NCBI RefSeq assembly: GCF_014646215.1
Contig: NZ_BMNA01000003.1
Coordinates: 496,001 to 560,000 of the forward strand
DNA from: Nakamurella endophytica
GTDB lineage: Bacteria; Actinomycetota; Actinomycetes; Mycobacteriales; Nakamurellaceae
DNA: 64,000 bases
Direction: 5' to 3'
The position numbers and the translations under genes were made by a program. The stretch's first letter is position 1; each line of letters starts with the position of its first letter. The notes under the pieces are model-generated. The model did no database searches. It was not told the DNA's origin and saw only the letters and a program-made list of their open reading frames with translations. Shown in pieces: positions 48,540 to 55,649 of this stretch.

Positions 48540-48566
48540 TGTCGATTCCGGGCCGTCCCGTTCGTG
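48540..48566 (+). promoter_or_regulatory. ECF42-type promoter (TGTCGA -35, CGT -10)
   Basis: TGTCGA at 48540-48545 is followed after 17 bases by CGTG at 48563-48566, about 55 bp before the DGPF gene start. ECF42 sigma factors are known to use TGTCGA at -35 and CGA/TC at -10. The -10 here is a near match (CGTG instead of CGTC). The position before the gene linked to the ECF42 factor supports autoregulation. Confidence 0.55.
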
Positions 48567-48619
48567 GGATGGGTGCAGGACCGGCAGCGGGCCGGTCCTC
48601 TGCCGACAGGGAGACCGTC

Positions 48620-48976
48620 ATGAAGCAGTACATGCTGTCCGTGTGGGGCGTCGACGGCGCGCCGGTGCCGTCGCAGGAGGAGATGCAGCAGGCGTTCGCC
48701 GACGTCGACGCGTTCAACACGGAGCTGCAGACCTCCGGTGCCTGGGTGTTCGCCGGCGGGCTGCACCCCGCCGAGACGGCGTCGGTCGTGCGCGTCGAGG
48801 ACGGCAGGACCGTCACCACGGATGGCCCGTTCGCCGAGACCCGGAAGCACCTCGGCGGGTTCTGGGTGGTCAGGGCGGCCGACCTGGACGCGGCCCTGGA
48901 GCTGGCCCGGCGCGGCGCGGTCGCGTGCCGCAACCCGGTCGAGGTGCGGCCGTTCCAGGACGAGGCGGAGGACTGA
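48620..48976 (+). CDS. DGPF-domain (YCII-related) protein
   Basis: 118 residues. It carries the family motif TDGPFAETRKHLGGFWVVRA, with MKQYMLSVWG at the start. YCII/DGPF proteins form small alpha-beta barrels; in actinobacteria they are the standard partners of ECF42 sigma factors, perhaps as small-molecule sensors or enzymes. The ATG at 48620 follows AGGGAGACCGTC. The sigma factor gene follows 3 bp after the stop. Confidence 0.88.
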   Translation: MKQYMLSVWGVDGAPVPSQEEMQQAFADVDAFNTELQTSGAWVFAGGLHPAETASVVRVEDGRTVTTDGPFAETRKHLGGFWVVRAADLDAALELARRGAVACRNPVEVRPFQDEAED

Positions 48977-48979
48977 GCC

Positions 48980-50194
48980 CTGGCCACCGGGCTCGACGGC
49001 GCCGTCGCGGCCGTCTTCCGCCGCGAGTACGGCGCCGCGGTGGCCACCCTGGTCCGTCTCCTCGGTGACATCGGTCTCGCCGAGGAGGCGGTGCAGGACG
49101 CCTTCGAGGTCGCCGTGACGGCGTGGACCCGGGACGGGACACCGGCCAACCCGGGCGGCTGGATCGTCACCACCGCCCGCCGCCGCGCGATCGACCGTTT
49201 CCGGCGGGACCGCGACCGGGACGCCCGGCACGCGGCCGCCGCGCTGCTGCACGCACCGGACGAGGCGGAGGTGTACCCGGTGTCCGACGACCAGCTGCGG
49301 TTGATCTTCACCTGCTGCCACCCCGCGCTGGCCGTCGACGCGCAGGTCGCCCTGTCGCTGAAGCTGCTGGCCGGGCTGGAGCCCGCCCAGATCGCCAAGG
49401 CCTTCGTCGTCCCCGAACCGACGATGGCGCAGCGGCTGGTGCGGGCCAAGCGCAAGATCCGCGACGCCGGCATCCCGTACCGCATCCCCACCCAGGCCCA
49501 GCTGCCCGACCGGCTGCCGGCCGTGCTGGCCGTGATCTACCTCGTCTTCACCGCCGGCTACAGCCCACCCGGCGGGCCGCTGGTCCGTGTCGACCTGTGC
49601 GCCGAGGGGCTCCGGCTGGCCAGGCTGCTTGCCGAGTTGATGCCGGACGAGCCCGAGGCGACCGGGCTGCTGGCGCTGCTGCTGCTCACCGACGCCCGGC
49701 GCCCCGCCCGCACCGACGCCGGCGGGGCGCTGGTGCTGCTGGCGGACCAGGACCGCAGCCGCTGGGACGCCGCGGCCGTCGCGGAGGGCCTGGACCTGGT
49801 GCGGCGCTGCCTGCGTCGCAACCGGCCGGGTCCGTACCAGATCCAGGCGGCCATCGCCGCGGTCCACGCGGACGCGCGGCGGGCGGCCGACACGGACTGG
49901 GCGCAGATCGTCGCCCTGTACGACCAGCTGTCCCTCGTCCGGCCGACGCCGGTGGTGGCCGTCAACCGGGCGGTGGCCGTGGCCGAACGCGACGGGCCCG
50001 ACGCCGGGCTGGCCGCGTTGGACGGCGTCCGGCTCACCGGCTACCAGCCGTTGCACGTGGCCAGGGCCGAGCTGCTGCGCCGCGCGGGCGACCGGACCGC
50101 CGCGGCGGCGGAGTACCGCACCGCCCTCGAGCTGACCACCAGCGACGCGGAACGCGACCACCTCGAGCGACGGCTGTCCTCTCTGGTCGGCTGA
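48980..50194 (+). CDS. ECF sigma factor, ECF42 group, with TPR-like C-terminal extension
   Basis: 404 residues. Sigma region 2 begins [14 protein letters not shown] and includes [20 protein letters not shown]. Region 4 is [20 protein letters not shown] to [22 protein letters not shown]-terminal extension of about 220 residues, helical and TPR-like, is the ECF42 mark. The only in-frame start that keeps the conserved region-2 head is CTG at 48980, with GGCGGAGGA at the right distance and a stop directly before it; the next start, GTG 49040, would lose 20 conserved residues. It probably directs RNA polymerase to the promoter at 48540. Confidence 0.85.
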
Positions 50195-50240: not shown

Positions 50241-50392
50241 GCGCCGGCGCGGTGCGGTGCGCCGTGCCGGTCGGACACCCGGTCCGGTGACGCGGGCCGC
50301 CATGCCGTCCAGGGCGGAACCGGCGGCCCGGCCGCGGAGTCCCACCAGCCGGCCGGCGGTCGTGCCGGTCCGGATGGGGAAGGGTGCAGGCA

Positions 50393-51253
50393 GTGGTGGA
50401 CGTGATCGGCGTGCCGGGGGTGCGCCACGACCGGTTCGCGCCGGACCGGCTGCGCGGCCTCTGGGAGCCCGCCCTGCGCGACGGACTCGAGATCGCGACC
50501 GGCTCCGAGCCCGCACCGTCGTTCGCCCTTGCCTACTACGGCGACCTGTTCGCCCAGGCGCAGACCCTCGCGGACGCCGAGTTCGGCGTCACCAAGGGCG
50601 CCACCGAGGACGGCCAGGTGTGGCCCGCCGAGGACGACGACGTGGCGTTCCTGGCCGCGGCCGCGGACGAGGTGCTGGACGGCCGCCCGGCCCTGCCCGA
50701 CGCGCCGGAGTGGAAGGGTGTCGCACCGGTGCCGCCGGTCCTGCGGCCGGTGCTGCGCAGACTGACGCAGCGGTTCGACATCACCGTGGCGTTGACGTTC
50801 ATCCGGTCGCTGCACCAGGTCAAGGTCTACACGCAGGACGCTCCGCTGGCCGCGTCCATCCGCGCCCAGGTGCGGGCGACGCTCCAGCAGGGCTGCACCG
50901 TCGTGGTGGCGCACTCGCTCGGCTCGGTGGTCACCCTCGAGGTGCTCGCCACGCACCCGGAGCTGCGGGTCGACACCCTGGTCACGGTCGGCTCGCCGCT
51001 GAGCATGCGGCTGCTCAACGGCCGGCTGCCGGCCGCCGCCCGGCGGACGGTGCCGCCCCAGCTGCGTCGCTGGGTCAACGTCTACGACCCGGCGGACCCG
51101 GTGGCCGGAGCCGGGGCGCTCGGCCGGCTGTGGCCGGGCGTGCACGACTTCGAGGTGTCCAACGGCGACGACCCGCACTCCAGCCAGCGGTACCTGGCCA
51201 AGCGCGCCACCGGCCGCGCCGTCGCCCAGTCGCTGGGTTACCTGCCCGGCTGA
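50393..51253 (+). CDS. Alpha/beta hydrolase, convergent with the caspase-NTPase gene
   Basis: 286 residues. The nucleophile elbow is VVVAHSLGSVVTLE (Ser175). A likely Asp is in WVNVYDPADPVAG and a His in WPGVHDFEVSNGDDPHSS, which gives a plausible triad. No signal peptide is seen. The head (VVDVIGVPGVRHDRFAPD) is typical of intracellular lipase-like or thioesterase-like hydrolases; substrate unknown. GTG starts at 50384, 50393 and 50396 are possible; GGGGAAGGG favours 50393. Its last 16 bp overlap the end of the caspase-NTPase-WD40 gene, so the two could be functionally paired. Confidence 0.78.
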   Translation: MVDVIGVPGVRHDRFAPDRLRGLWEPALRDGLEIATGSEPAPSFALAYYGDLFAQAQTLADAEFGVTKGATEDGQVWPAEDDDVAFLAAAADEVLDGRPALPDAPEWKGVAPVPPVLRPVLRRLTQRFDITVALTFIRSLHQVKVYTQDAPLAASIRAQVRATLQQGCTVVVAHSLGSVVTLEVLATHPELRVDTLVTVGSPLSMRLLNGRLPAAARRTVPPQLRRWVNVYDPADPVAGAGALGRLWPGVHDFEVSNGDDPHSSQRYLAKRATGRAVAQSLGYLPG

Positions 51254-54200
51254 GGGTCCAGCGGGACGGCGCCGACCGCGAACACCAGCACCCCGGCGGC
51301 GGTGGCGGCGACGACCCGTCCCGCTCCGGCCGGCGCGAGCGCCACGACCGGCCCGTCGAGCTGCAGCAGCGCGCGGCTCGTCCCACCGAACAGGTCCACC
51401 AGCCGCACCGCGCCGTCGGCGCCGCCGGCCAGCACCCGCCCCGGACCCGGGCCGGCCGGGAGCAGCGCCCGGACGCCCGCGCCGGGCAGTGGCCAGCGGT
51501 GCAGCGGTGCGCCCGTGTCCAGGTCGAGGACGGCCAGGCCGGCCACGTCGGCGACCACCAGACCGGTGCGGGCGTCGCTGAGCGGGACCAGCGCCACCGC
51601 GGCGGCCGGACCCCCGTCGGGGGTGCCGTGCCGGGCGACCAGCCGGCCGTTCGCGAGATCCCACACCGGCACCGCGCCGTCCGCGGTGGCCGCCGCCGCG
51701 ACCGGGAACCGGCCGCCGGTCGCGGCCAGTGCGACGACGGCGGCGGCTCCCGGCAGCGGCTGCGGGCTGGCCGTCCTGGACAGGTCCCAGCGCCGGGCGC
51801 CGTCCGCGCCGCCGGACACCACGGCCGGGCCCGAGGCGGTGCCGGCCACGGCGAGCGCGGTCACCGGCCCGGAGTGGCCGGCGAGGTCCGGACCCAGTGG
51901 CCGGCCGGCGAGCAGGTCGACGACGGACAGCCGACCGTCCGCCCGTCCCCACACGGTGAAGCCGGCGCCGGTGGCCCAGCGTCCGGACACCGCCGCCGTC
52001 ACCGGGACACCCGGCAGGGCTGCGGCGGGACGGGCGTCGCCGGTGGCCGCGGACCACGCCCGCACGCCGCCGTCCCGGTCGGCCGCCGCGACGACGCCGG
52101 ATCCGTCCGCGGTGACCACCGCCGTCGCCGCGGACAGCGCCGCCCGGCCGCCGGACCCCTGCCCGGCCGCGGCCCAGGCCGGGACCGGCACGATGCAGGC
52201 CAACCCGTCGGCGCCGCCTGTGACGACCACGCCGTCGCCGTCCGTTCCGCCGCCGACCTGCACCGCCGTGACCGGGCCGGTGTGCACCGGCAGCGACCCG
52301 AGCGGCGCGGCGGTGTCCAGGTCCCACAGCGTGACCCGGCCCGTGACGTCCCCGGCCACCGCCACCCGGCGACCGTCCGGCAGGCTGGCGGCCCCGACCG
52401 CCCCGAGCTCCTCGCCCGCCGGCAGCACCGCGACCGGCGCGGCGTCCGCGAGACCGGCGACGTGGACGCCTGTCCCGGCCGCGGCGAGCACCAGGCGGCG
52501 TCCGCCGGCCCGGGCGATGGCCATCGCCGTGACCGGCCCGGCGCCCAGCTCCGCGGGGACTGCCACCGGCCGTCCGGTGACCGCGTCCCAGCGTTGCAGC
52601 GCGCCGTCGCGCGCCCCGGTCACCAGGACGGTCGACCCGTCTGCGGCCCGGCCGAGCGCGACCGCGGTGACCGGTGCGCCGCCGGCGGCCCGGGTGACCG
52701 CGCGCAATCCGGTGCCCGACAGCTCCAGCAGGTGCACGCCGCCGTCGTCCGTCCCGGCGGCGACGGCGAGGTCGCCACGCACCGGCCGGCCGACCGAGAC
52801 CGCTCGCACCGCAGCGCCTTCCGCTGGTGTCCAGGGCGGACCGAGGAGGCGCCCCGCCGCGAGGTCCAGCACGTGGAGCGCGCCGGCGGCGTCCGCGACG
52901 ACGCCCACCGCCCGGCCGTCGCGCAGCCGTCCGGTCGCCATCGCGGTCGCCGGTGCGGTGACGACGACCGGATCCCCGGCCCGACCGCCGTCCCGGAGCG
53001 CCCAGAGCCGGACGGTCCCGTCGGCGCCCGCCGTCGCGACCCCGCCCGTGCCGTCCGGGAGACCGACCAGCCCGCAGCCGACGACCGGTCCCCGGTGGCC
53101 CGGCAGCTCCAACCGATCCACCGCCGGTCGCGGTGTGGCCCACAGCGGGACCAGGGTGCCGCCGCCGGACAGGAACGGGCGGAGACCGCCCGCGACGTCC
53201 GGCTCGCCGGACTGCAGCAGGGCCGCCGACAGCACCGCCGCCCTGGCCCCCACCGACGGCGTCCCGCGCAGCCGGTGCGCCACCCGGCGGTAGGCGGCTG
53301 CGACCGTCCTGGCCGCCGGGCGGCGAGCCGCGCCGAGCACGGGCAGCAACCCGTCCGGTTCAGCGTGGACCAGAGCCGGTGCAGCGCCGAGGACGTCGTC
53401 CAGGAGCCCACCGGCCGCGGCGTGTGCGGCGAGGTGTCGTGCCGGGTAGGCGTCGGCAGCCAGATCGGGCCGGGCCAGCAGGGCGCCGGCGATCGCCGCA
53501 TGACGCCCCGCCAGGTACCGCCCGGCCGGGCTGGCCGGATCCCGCTCCGCGCCGGATCCCAGACCCAGGAACCGGTCCGGTGTCGCCGTCGGGTCGGCGG
53601 GATCGAGAGCCAGGACCGCGCTGACGGAGTCGTGGAACGGCCGGTACACCGTCATCCCGCCGTCCAGGTCCCGGACCAGGTATGCACCGGTCCGGCGTCG
53701 CAGCACGTCGTCGATCGCGGTGTCCATGTCCCGCTCGTGCGCCAGTGCCGCGGCCGCGGCCGGCCACACGCCGCGCCACGGGATGCCACGGCCGAGGGCC
53801 AGCGCGGCAGCCTGCAGCACGGCCGCCGCCCGGCGCCGCTGCGCCGGATCGGCGTACTCGGCTTCCAGCTCCGTCCGCAACACCTGGGCGAGACCGGCGA
53901 CGACCGAACCGCGCCAGCGGGTGTCGTGCGGATCCTGCACGTCGTCGCGGGCGGCCAGGGCTTCCGCGGCCAACCGTGCGAGCAGGTACGAGGTACCGAC
54001 CAGTTCGGCGACGGCGGCCGACAGCCGGTGGGCCAGCTCGGGATCGGCACGGTAGCGGGCGGGAGCGGCGCCGCCGCCGTCCCCGGTGATGGTCGCCACG
54101 ACGAGATCGCGGACGTCGCCGGAGGTCCAGTACGGTGCGGCGTCCGCGGGCAGCGCCCGCGCGTGCAACCGCCGCACGGTGGCGCCGGCCAGCGTCCCGG

Positions 54201-55560
54201 CGCTCGCTCCGCCGCCCGGATCGTCCCCCTCGCTCGAGCGCACGCCCACCACCAGCCGGAGCCGGGCGCGGTCCCAGTCCGCGGTGAGCGGGGTCAGCAC
54301 CTCGGCCAGCACCGCGAACGGATCGGCCGCCTCGTCGAGGCCGTCGACGACGAGCGTCCGGACCTCTCCGGTCGCCAGCGCCGAACGGACCCGGTCGACC
54401 TGGGCGGCCGCGGACGCCGCGGCGGGACCGGCCGTCCCGATCCCGAGCCGGGTCACCAGCGCCGCTGCGACGTCCGCCGCCGTCATCCCGGTCACCGACA
54501 GCGCGGCGTCGACCCGGGGACCGTCCCCTGTGCCGGTGCCGGTGCCGGTGCCGGTGCCGGTGCCGGTGCCGGTACCTGTGCCTGTGCCGGCGGCGGCCAG
54601 CTCGGCCAGCCGGGCCAGCGCCGCGGACTTGCCGCACCCGGCGGTCCCGACGAGCACCGTCGCGCCCGGGGCGCCGCGGGTGGCGACGGTCAGCGCGTCC
54701 AGCAGCGCCCGGCGTCCGACGAACCGGCCGGCGCCGGTGAGCGGACCGCGGGCGTCGTCGGGTGTCCCGGCCGGCGGGACGGCCGCCACGTCCGCGGCCC
54801 CCGGCACCGGACGGGTCGCGGCCGCCGGGCCCGCCCGGTGGAGGGGGTTGGGCAGGCACGGCGAGACGCCGCCCCGCGGAAACCTCGGGAACACCACGAC
54901 ATCCTGTGACCCGACGGCGTCGGTGACGGCGCTGAGCACGTCTATCGGCCGCAGGTACGGCTCCAGCGCCGAACCCAGCCGCTCGTCGGTGGCCATGGTC
55001 GCCAGGAACCGCTCGACGGCGCCGGACACCGCGCCCAGCCGGGCCTGTCGGGTCGGCGCGGCGGTCGCGACGCCGATCCAGCCGGACGGCAGCTCGTCGT
55101 CCAGCTTCAGCACCGACTCGGCGATCTGTCCGGCGTGGCAGGTGTCGACGACCACCAGCGCGTGCTGCACGCCGGTGTCCATGATCCAGCCGAGCAACTG
55201 GTCCGTGCGCAGCATGGTCGAGTGCGGCCGCGACCTGTCGCTCTGCCGGAGTACGAGACGGTGTGCGCCGTCGATGATCTCGCCGTGTCCGGTGACGACG
55301 AGCACCAGCGCGTCGGCGGGCCGGATGGCCGTCGTGCCGCACAGCGCGGCGAAGACGTCGGCCGGTGACGGATCCTCGGCCAGCTGCGGGGCCAGGGGCA
55401 CGAACCGCCGCTCGCCGAGCTCCGGCGCGCACAGCCACCGCCGCCACACGGCGATCTCCGACGCCACGTCCAGCGGCGGCCAGAGGTCGTCCTGGTCGTA
55501 CTGCCCGGTGGCCAGCACGACGAGGTGGCGGCGGCGGACCTCGACCTGGTCGGCTCGCAT
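51238..55560 (-). CDS. Caspase-like protease + STAND NTPase + WD40-repeat protein
   Basis: 1,440 residues. A peptidase C14-type (caspase fold) domain at 1-225 has LVLVVTGHGE (His92) and ALVVVDTCHAG (Cys141), the catalytic dyad. A proline/alanine linker leads to a P-loop NTPase at about 280-600: FVGRRALLDAL, Walker A GTAGCGKS (305-312), Walker B LVVDGLDEA (404-411). A helical region (600-800) is followed by a long WD40/beta-propeller array (about 815-1440) with repeats such as GHRGPVVG and VATAGADGTVRLW, enough for roughly two propellers. Such sensor-ATPase-protease proteins act as triggered suicide or defense switches; function here is inferred. The ATG at 55558-55560 follows AAGGGGACGGGG. 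Confidence 0.88.
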   Translation of the reverse strand: MRADQVEVRRRHLVVLATGQYDQDDLWPPLDVASEIAVWRRWLCAPELGERRFVPLAPQLAEDPSPADVFAALCGTTAIRPADALVLVVTGHGEIIDGAHRLVLRQSDRSRPHSTMLRTDQLLGWIMDTGVQHALVVVDTCHAGQIAESVLKLDDELPSGWIGVATAAPTRQARLGAVSGAVERFLATMATDERLGSALEPYLRPIDVLSAVTDAVGSQDVVVFPRFPRGGVSPCLPNPLHRAGPAAATRPVPGAADVAAVPPAGTPDDARGPLTGAGRFVGRRALLDALTVATRGAPGATVLVGTAGCGKSAALARLAELAAAGTGTGTGTGTGTGTGTGTGTGDGPRVDAALSVTGMTAADVAAALVTRLGIGTAGPAAASAAAQVDRVRSALATGEVRTLVVDGLDEAADPFAVLAEVLTPLTADWDRARLRLVVGVRSSEGDDPGGGASAGTLAGATVRRLHARALPADAAPYWTSGDVRDLVVATITGDGGGAAPARYRADPELAHRLSAAVAELVGTSYLLARLAAEALAARDDVQDPHDTRWRGSVVAGLAQVLRTELEAEYADPAQRRRAAAVLQAAALALGRGIPWRGVWPAAAAALAHERDMDTAIDDVLRRRTGAYLVRDLDGGMTVYRPFHDSVSAVLALDPADPTATPDRFLGLGSGAERDPASPAGRYLAGRHAAIAGALLARPDLAADAYPARHLAAHAAAGGLLDDVLGAAPALVHAEPDGLLPVLGAARRPAARTVAAAYRRVAHRLRGTPSVGARAAVLSAALLQSGEPDVAGGLRPFLSGGGTLVPLWATPRPAVDRLELPGHRGPVVGCGLVGLPDGTGGVATAGADGTVRLWALRDGGRAGDPVVVTAPATAMATGRLRDGRAVGVVADAAGALHVLDLAAGRLLGPPWTPAEGAAVRAVSVGRPVRGDLAVAAGTDDGGVHLLELSGTGLRAVTRAAGGAPVTAVALGRAADGSTVLVTGARDGALQRWDAVTGRPVAVPAELGAGPVTAMAIARAGGRRLVLAAAGTGVHVAGLADAAPVAVLPAGEELGAVGAASLPDGRRVAVAGDVTGRVTLWDLDTAAPLGSLPVHTGPVTAVQVGGGTDGDGVVVTGGADGLACIVPVPAWAAAGQGSGGRAALSAATAVVTADGSGVVAAADRDGGVRAWSAATGDARPAAALPGVPVTAAVSGRWATGAGFTVWGRADGRLSVVDLLAGRPLGPDLAGHSGPVTALAVAGTASGPAVVSGGADGARRWDLSRTASPQPLPGAAAVVALAATGGRFPVAAAATADGAVPVWDLANGRLVARHGTPDGGPAAAVALVPLSDARTGLVVADVAGLAVLDLDTGAPLHRWPLPGAGVRALLPAGPGPGRVLAGGADGAVRLVDLFGGTSRALLQLDGPVVALAPAGAGRVVAATAAGVLVFAVGAVPLDPQPGR
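54529..54588. repeat. Hexanucleotide repeat encoding (Gly-Thr)10 in the NTPase domain
   Basis: Ten hexamers (six of GGTGCC on the + strand, one GGTACC and three TGTGCC) run for 60 bp. They encode ten Gly-Thr dipeptides at residues 325-344, just after the Walker A helix. Copy-number change would keep the frame. Confidence 0.85.
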
Positions 55561-55649
55561 CCCCGTCCCCTTCTCGGCCCGTCCGCCTCCGACCGCGCGG
55601 GTCGACCGCACCCTAACCGGCGGTCCCGGCGCCGGTGGTGGTTCCGGGG

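Follow-up and report, generated by a model that had tools for sequence, protein, structure and literature searches.

The locus analysed here raises the question of where translation of a sigma factor gene begins when none of the usual start codons stands ahead of its conserved head. It lies in a 64,000-nucleotide stretch of Nakamurella endophytica DNA (the window), whose positions 48540-50194 hold, on the plus strand, a full ECF42 unit consisting of a promoter, a DGPF/YCII gene and an ECF42 sigma gene. The ECF42-type promoter, TGTCGA-N17-CGTG, was located at 48540-48566 by its sequence and by the motif survey described below. The gene encoding the DGPF/YCII-domain protein (48620-48976; 118 amino acids; Pfam YCII, E 1.8e-13) starts with ATG and ends with TGA, and its product contains the letters TDGPF. 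A longer reading frame for this gene, from ATG 48569, is unlikely, as its start would fall 2 nt after the CGTG element. The sigma gene follows at 48980-50194 and encodes 404 amino acids if counted from the putative start codon, a CTG (48980-48982) located 3 nt past the DGPF stop.

The preliminary description had called the gene product an ECF42 sigma factor, and this identity is the best-supported reading. The protein has regions 2 and 4_2 and lacks region 3: the Pfam models Sigma70_r2 (residues 13-78), Sigma70_r4_2 (109-160) and DUF6596 (178-277) all matched above their cutoffs, as did TIGR02937. The C-terminal extension, which in the definition of the group comprises about 200 residues and is rich in TPRs, is approximately 240 residues long and contains DUF6596; no TPR model matched it at E 0.001. 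The activity of the ECF42 group is reported to depend on this extension (PMC8999054, in the part of the article available to us). The DGPF/YCII gene lies directly 5' of the sigma gene on the same strand, and a DGPF gene is present at 277 of the 286 distinct related loci. No anti-sigma gene adjoins the unit, the upstream neighbour encoding an SBP_bac_5 protein and the downstream one an alpha/beta hydrolase. Viewed as a regulatory system, this is an ordinary ECF42 unit. Seven more long ECF42-like matches (L002-L008; 41-57% identical) are found in the same 4.9 Mb genome. Convergent with the hydrolase gene (50384-51253) is a minus-strand gene (51238-55611) for a large protein whose N-terminus is caspase-like (VVDTCHAG, recognized by eye) and which has weak AAA matches and WD40 repeats.

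The promoter elements TGTCGA (48540-48545) and CGTG (48563-48566) are separated by a spacer of 17, and the first base of the promoter is 80 nt 5' of the DGPF start codon. A start could be assigned to 222 DGPF genes; 126 of these had TGTCG[AG]-N16-18-CG[TA] upstream, as compared with a mean of 4.95 and a maximum of 9 in 100 shuffles. The spacer was 17 in 117 of these 126 upstream regions, and in 56 of them the motif was 76-81 nt from the start codon. The consensus of the motif adds GTT ahead of CGT, and the window promoter has the same addition. In the genome of N. endophytica TGTCGA-N13-15-GTTCG gave 20 matches versus 3, the one in the window being the only match with the N14 form, which corresponds to spacer 17. 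A genome-wide search for a regulon with TGTCGA-N16-18-CGTG was uninformative (68 matches versus 51 for the reversed control). TGTCGA is the ECF42 promoter motif of S. venezuelae. In S. meliloti, TGTCGG-N17-CGTC precedes RpoE10-responsive genes (available part of PMC6180224; spacers counted in this analysis). Because these S. meliloti promoters match, the window promoter is of the known ECF42 type and not a new one. The earlier suggestion that TGTCGA plus CGTG upstream of the DGPF gene fits an ECF42-dependent promoter was therefore well founded, whereas the idea that the sigma factor has a promoter type of its own has to be given up, a promoter of this kind having already been published. The operon is probably autoregulated by its own sigma factor; in S. 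meliloti, RpoE10 seems not to activate the operon to which it belongs, as far as the accessible text of PMC6180224 goes.

Between the DGPF stop codon (TGA 48974-48976) and GTG 49040 there is no in-frame ATG, GTG or TTG. The TGA lies in the sigma frame, the junction reads TGA GCC CTG, and the two genes thus share one frame. From the TGA up to the homologous head, CTG 48980 is the sole NTG- or ATN-type codon. Counted from this CTG, the conserved region-2 head spans codons 5-18, and the next canonical start, GTG 49040, is codon 21, which agrees with the claim of the preliminary description that the head is in frame only if translation begins at CTG 48980. The stop that it had placed directly upstream of the CTG is indeed there, and is the DGPF gene's own TGA. 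It had also noted a Shine-Dalgarno sequence at good spacing; this is GGCGGAGGA (48964-48972), within the 3' end of the DGPF gene, with CGGAGGA 7 nt before the CTG and an anti-Shine-Dalgarno duplex of -9.5 kcal/mol. Part of this Shine-Dalgarno may be incidental, because it lies in codons for the acidic C-terminus of the DGPF protein. RNA structure at the DGPF-sigma junction was no more than in shuffles (z -0.05). The sigma genes of loci L010 and L011, whose products are 69% and 68% identical to that of the window, start at ATG. The N-terminus of L010 reads MTDPDG-VARVYRQEYG, and its homology with the window protein reaches D-G, codons 6-7 from the CTG; therefore, the start must lie between the TGA and codon 6. 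On these grounds CTG 48980 is the best reading of the sigma start, and one that we regard with moderate confidence as correct.

DGPF-ECF42 junctions were surveyed in 308 loci, consisting of the best matches among those listed and 80 further listed places, and thus not an even sample. The sigma head could be aligned in 293 loci, of which 286 were distinct, 277 had a DGPF gene and 273 had a usable junction; of the four DGPF loci dropped, three were too far and one had the DGPF stop beyond the head. The commonest layout, with sigma in the overlap frame, was found at 177 of the 273 junctions (GTGA 78, CTGA 61, ATGA 27, TTGA 3, others 8). At 45 of the 61 CTGA junctions an ATG, GTG or TTG is present at most 5 codons after the CTG. 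Nine others have no canonical start after the CTG, and in two of these nine (L060 and L088) a GTG immediately precedes it.

A canonical sigma start was missing at 8 of the 273 junctions. These are the window (L001), five loci whose CTG forms a CTGA overlap with the stop codon of DGPF (L022, L028, L029, L163 and L241), L041, and L263, which has no obvious sigma start. L041, from an Acidimicrobiia MAG, has a nearly window-like junction with in-frame TGA-GCC; an ATC occupies the position of the window's CTG, and a CTG follows three codons later. In all there were 22 junctions without a canonical start after the DGPF stop, and 13 of them have one before that stop, at most 40 codons upstream of the head. 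In two of the 13 (L104 and L114) the only canonical codons lie far inside DGPF, and sigma more likely starts at the CTGA overlap. L020 was set aside, since its head reads in a neighbouring frame that offers an ATG. In L005, L103, L144 and L282 the canonical starts precede the head by 53-61 codons; these loci would be counted as missing only under the 40-codon rule and were not so counted. Long low-complexity linkers between DGPF stop and sigma head were seen in L103, L144, L282 and L054 (Streptomyces cavernae); in L054 the overlapping ATG frame differs from the frame of the head.

At the same loci none of 272 DGPF starts was missing (ATG 234, GTG 30, TTG 8) under a stricter rule, by which the start had to lie no more than 15 codons from the anchor. 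The difference between 8/273 and 0/272 corresponds to a Fisher p of 0.0074, uncorrected for the dependence among L022, L028 and L029, which belong to a single ortholog group. On a tree of 81 rows the missing-start label (L001, L022, L028, L029, L041, L104, L114 and L163; L241 and L263 were left off because the stretches were short or the sequences too distant) requires 7 changes, of which well-supported branches force at least 5, and the labelled rows were not clustered, 125 of 500 shuffles being as low. The Shine-Dalgarnos of the other CTGA cases are weaker or badly spaced, which counts against the CTG reading. The comparison of start codons in other ECF42 genes, recommended in the preliminary description, shows that junctions without a canonical start are rare but recur; a CTG start in the window would be odd but not unique, and a few relatives also seem to use CTG.

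One group of orthologs has the CTGA overlap in all four genomes of a single genus that were examined (L022, L026, L028 and L029). Linker length after the overlap differs strongly, the CTG preceding the head by 7, 9, 23 and 37 codons, and in three of these genomes no further start is present past the DGPF stop. A family member from another genus (L197) has ATGA instead. In this group a synonymous change of the last DGPF Ser codon (TCC) could yield ATGA or GTGA. An all-C third base is also found at 12 of 179 comparable sigma sites and at 10 of 42 DGPF sites in the four genomes, and conservation of the C in CTGA is weak evidence.

If the sigma factor were translated from the first canonical in-frame start, GTG 49040 (49040-49042), inside region 2, a protein of 384 amino acids with a clipped region 2 would be produced. 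This would mean the loss of the FRREYG head, which recurs in the relatives compared, and of 8 residues of the Sigma70_r2 match; the best Shine-Dalgarno duplex for this GTG is only -2.5 kcal/mol, and the 20 codons that precede it have a GC3 of 1.0 (0.96 in the whole sigma gene). Considering domain loss, conservation and Shine-Dalgarno, we rejected a start at GTG 49040 as improbable. The shared frame of the DGPF and sigma genes raises two further alternatives, coupling, which we favour, and readthrough, which we do not. In the latter the DGPF TGA would be read through to yield a DGPF-sigma fusion, a small share representing the active sigma factor. The coincidence of the frames in the window, and likewise the in-frame TGA-GCC of L041 without a canonical start, would suit such a fusion. 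However, in-frame junctions are not in excess (frame 0, 42/273; frame 1, 54/273), and for this reason readthrough was rejected as the main reading and is regarded as very improbable. L042 alone looks like a fusion, but there the DGPF reading is frameshifted and out of frame with sigma, which has an ATG of its own.

Rather unlikely, too, is that the start was lost recently, leaving little or no functional sigma factor, or that the junction was misassembled and the printed sequence is wrong. The window sigma is diverged: it is changed at 9 of the 157 conserved columns, a number exceeded in 3 of 120 sequences, and its end branch measures 0.69 as compared with a median of 0.24. In the sister clade (L204-L207 and L213) a GTG is available in all five members and the DGPF-sigma frame relation is different; therefore an indel occurred in the linker. 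The genome is a single draft in 30 contigs, and among the matches listed there was no ortholog of the window sigma above 69% identity, the nearest having ATG or GTG. Several features speak against loss or misassembly: a sigma frame open over 404 codons with its high GC3 and three Pfam domains above cutoff, a consensus promoter at the usual spacing, the strong Shine-Dalgarno 7 nt from the CTG, and the other junctions that likewise have no canonical start.

With CTG 48980 as the start, expression of the unit can be envisaged as follows. ECF42 holoenzyme would read the TGTCGA-N17-CGTG promoter to produce a DGPF-sigma mRNA. Ribosomes ending DGPF at TGA 48974 would be held by GGCGGAGGA and would reinitiate, probably inefficiently, 3 nt downstream at the CTG, so that the 404-amino-acid sigma factor would be made at a small fraction of the DGPF output. 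A stop-start window of -8 to +6 nt has been described as indicative of termination-reinitiation (PMC10666635, available sections), and coupled reinitiation is favoured because the 3-nt gap falls within this range. As a whole, an autoregulated ECF42 operon with CTG reinitiation coupled to DGPF and low sigma output is probably the right explanation of the locus.

Published start-codon data bear on this proposal, as far as the accessible portions of the sources extend. When reporters with a Shine-Dalgarno were assayed in M. smegmatis, CTG showed no enrichment among functional starts (0.03%, versus 20.5-28.7% for ATG/GTG/TTG and 9.8% for ATT; PMC4633059), and the available text on initiation profiling in Mtb describes CTG enrichment as absent (PMC9094748). 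IF3 requires Watson-Crick pairing at the first base of the codon (PMC10158994), and in E. coli CTG works as a start at a reduced rate, as summarized in PMC13068326. Taken together, these data make weak use of CTG plausible and strong use unlikely. The earlier proposal that a CTG start would keep the sigma level low fits the reporter data on weak CTG; yet the same M. smegmatis data count against efficient use of the codon. In the open-licence literature searched we found no reported CTG starts of ECF42 genes and no paper linking ECF42 with DGPF. A broader possibility, put forward here tentatively and with some doubt, is that ECF42 junctions have repeatedly shifted to a CTG start, either in CTGA or a few nt past the stop: DGPF-coupled reinitiation would tolerate a codon that is rejected de novo, fixing sigma as a small share of DGPF. 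If the CTG is used, gene callers limited to ATG, GTG and TTG would misplace or clip such sigma factors, and CTGA junctions would offer a ready test of relaxed start choice under coupled reinitiation in Actinomycetota. The locus would gain in interest if the recurring CTGA junctions turned out to be functional.

The known ECF42 sigma factors (S. venezuelae Sven_0747/4377/7131, P. putida ECF-10 and S. meliloti RpoE10; PMC8999054 and PMC6180224, in the parts available) share with the window protein regions 2 and 4 and a long C-terminal extension, and their genes share the upstream DGPF/YCII-type gene and the lack of an adjoining anti-sigma gene. The S. meliloti promoter, as presented in the accessible part of PMC6180224, is like that of the window. 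The window differs from these systems in having no canonical start, with CTG as the putative one. The ATGA, GTGA and TGATG overlaps that serve in termination-reinitiation (PMC10666635, same sections) resemble the window junction in the distance from stop to start, which falls in the range of -8 to +6 nt, and many of the ECF42 junctions surveyed, 177 of 273, have sigma in the NTGA overlap frame; in contrast, the window has a putative CTG start, a 3-nt gap and a shared frame, without overlap. The ATA/ATT starts of L. monocytogenes rsbW (PMC13068326, available part) resemble the window in that the amount of a sigma-related regulator could be set by a weak start codon. The rsbW effect was shown by reporter, whereas in the window the putative start, read from the sequence, is a CTG and would act on the sigma gene itself.
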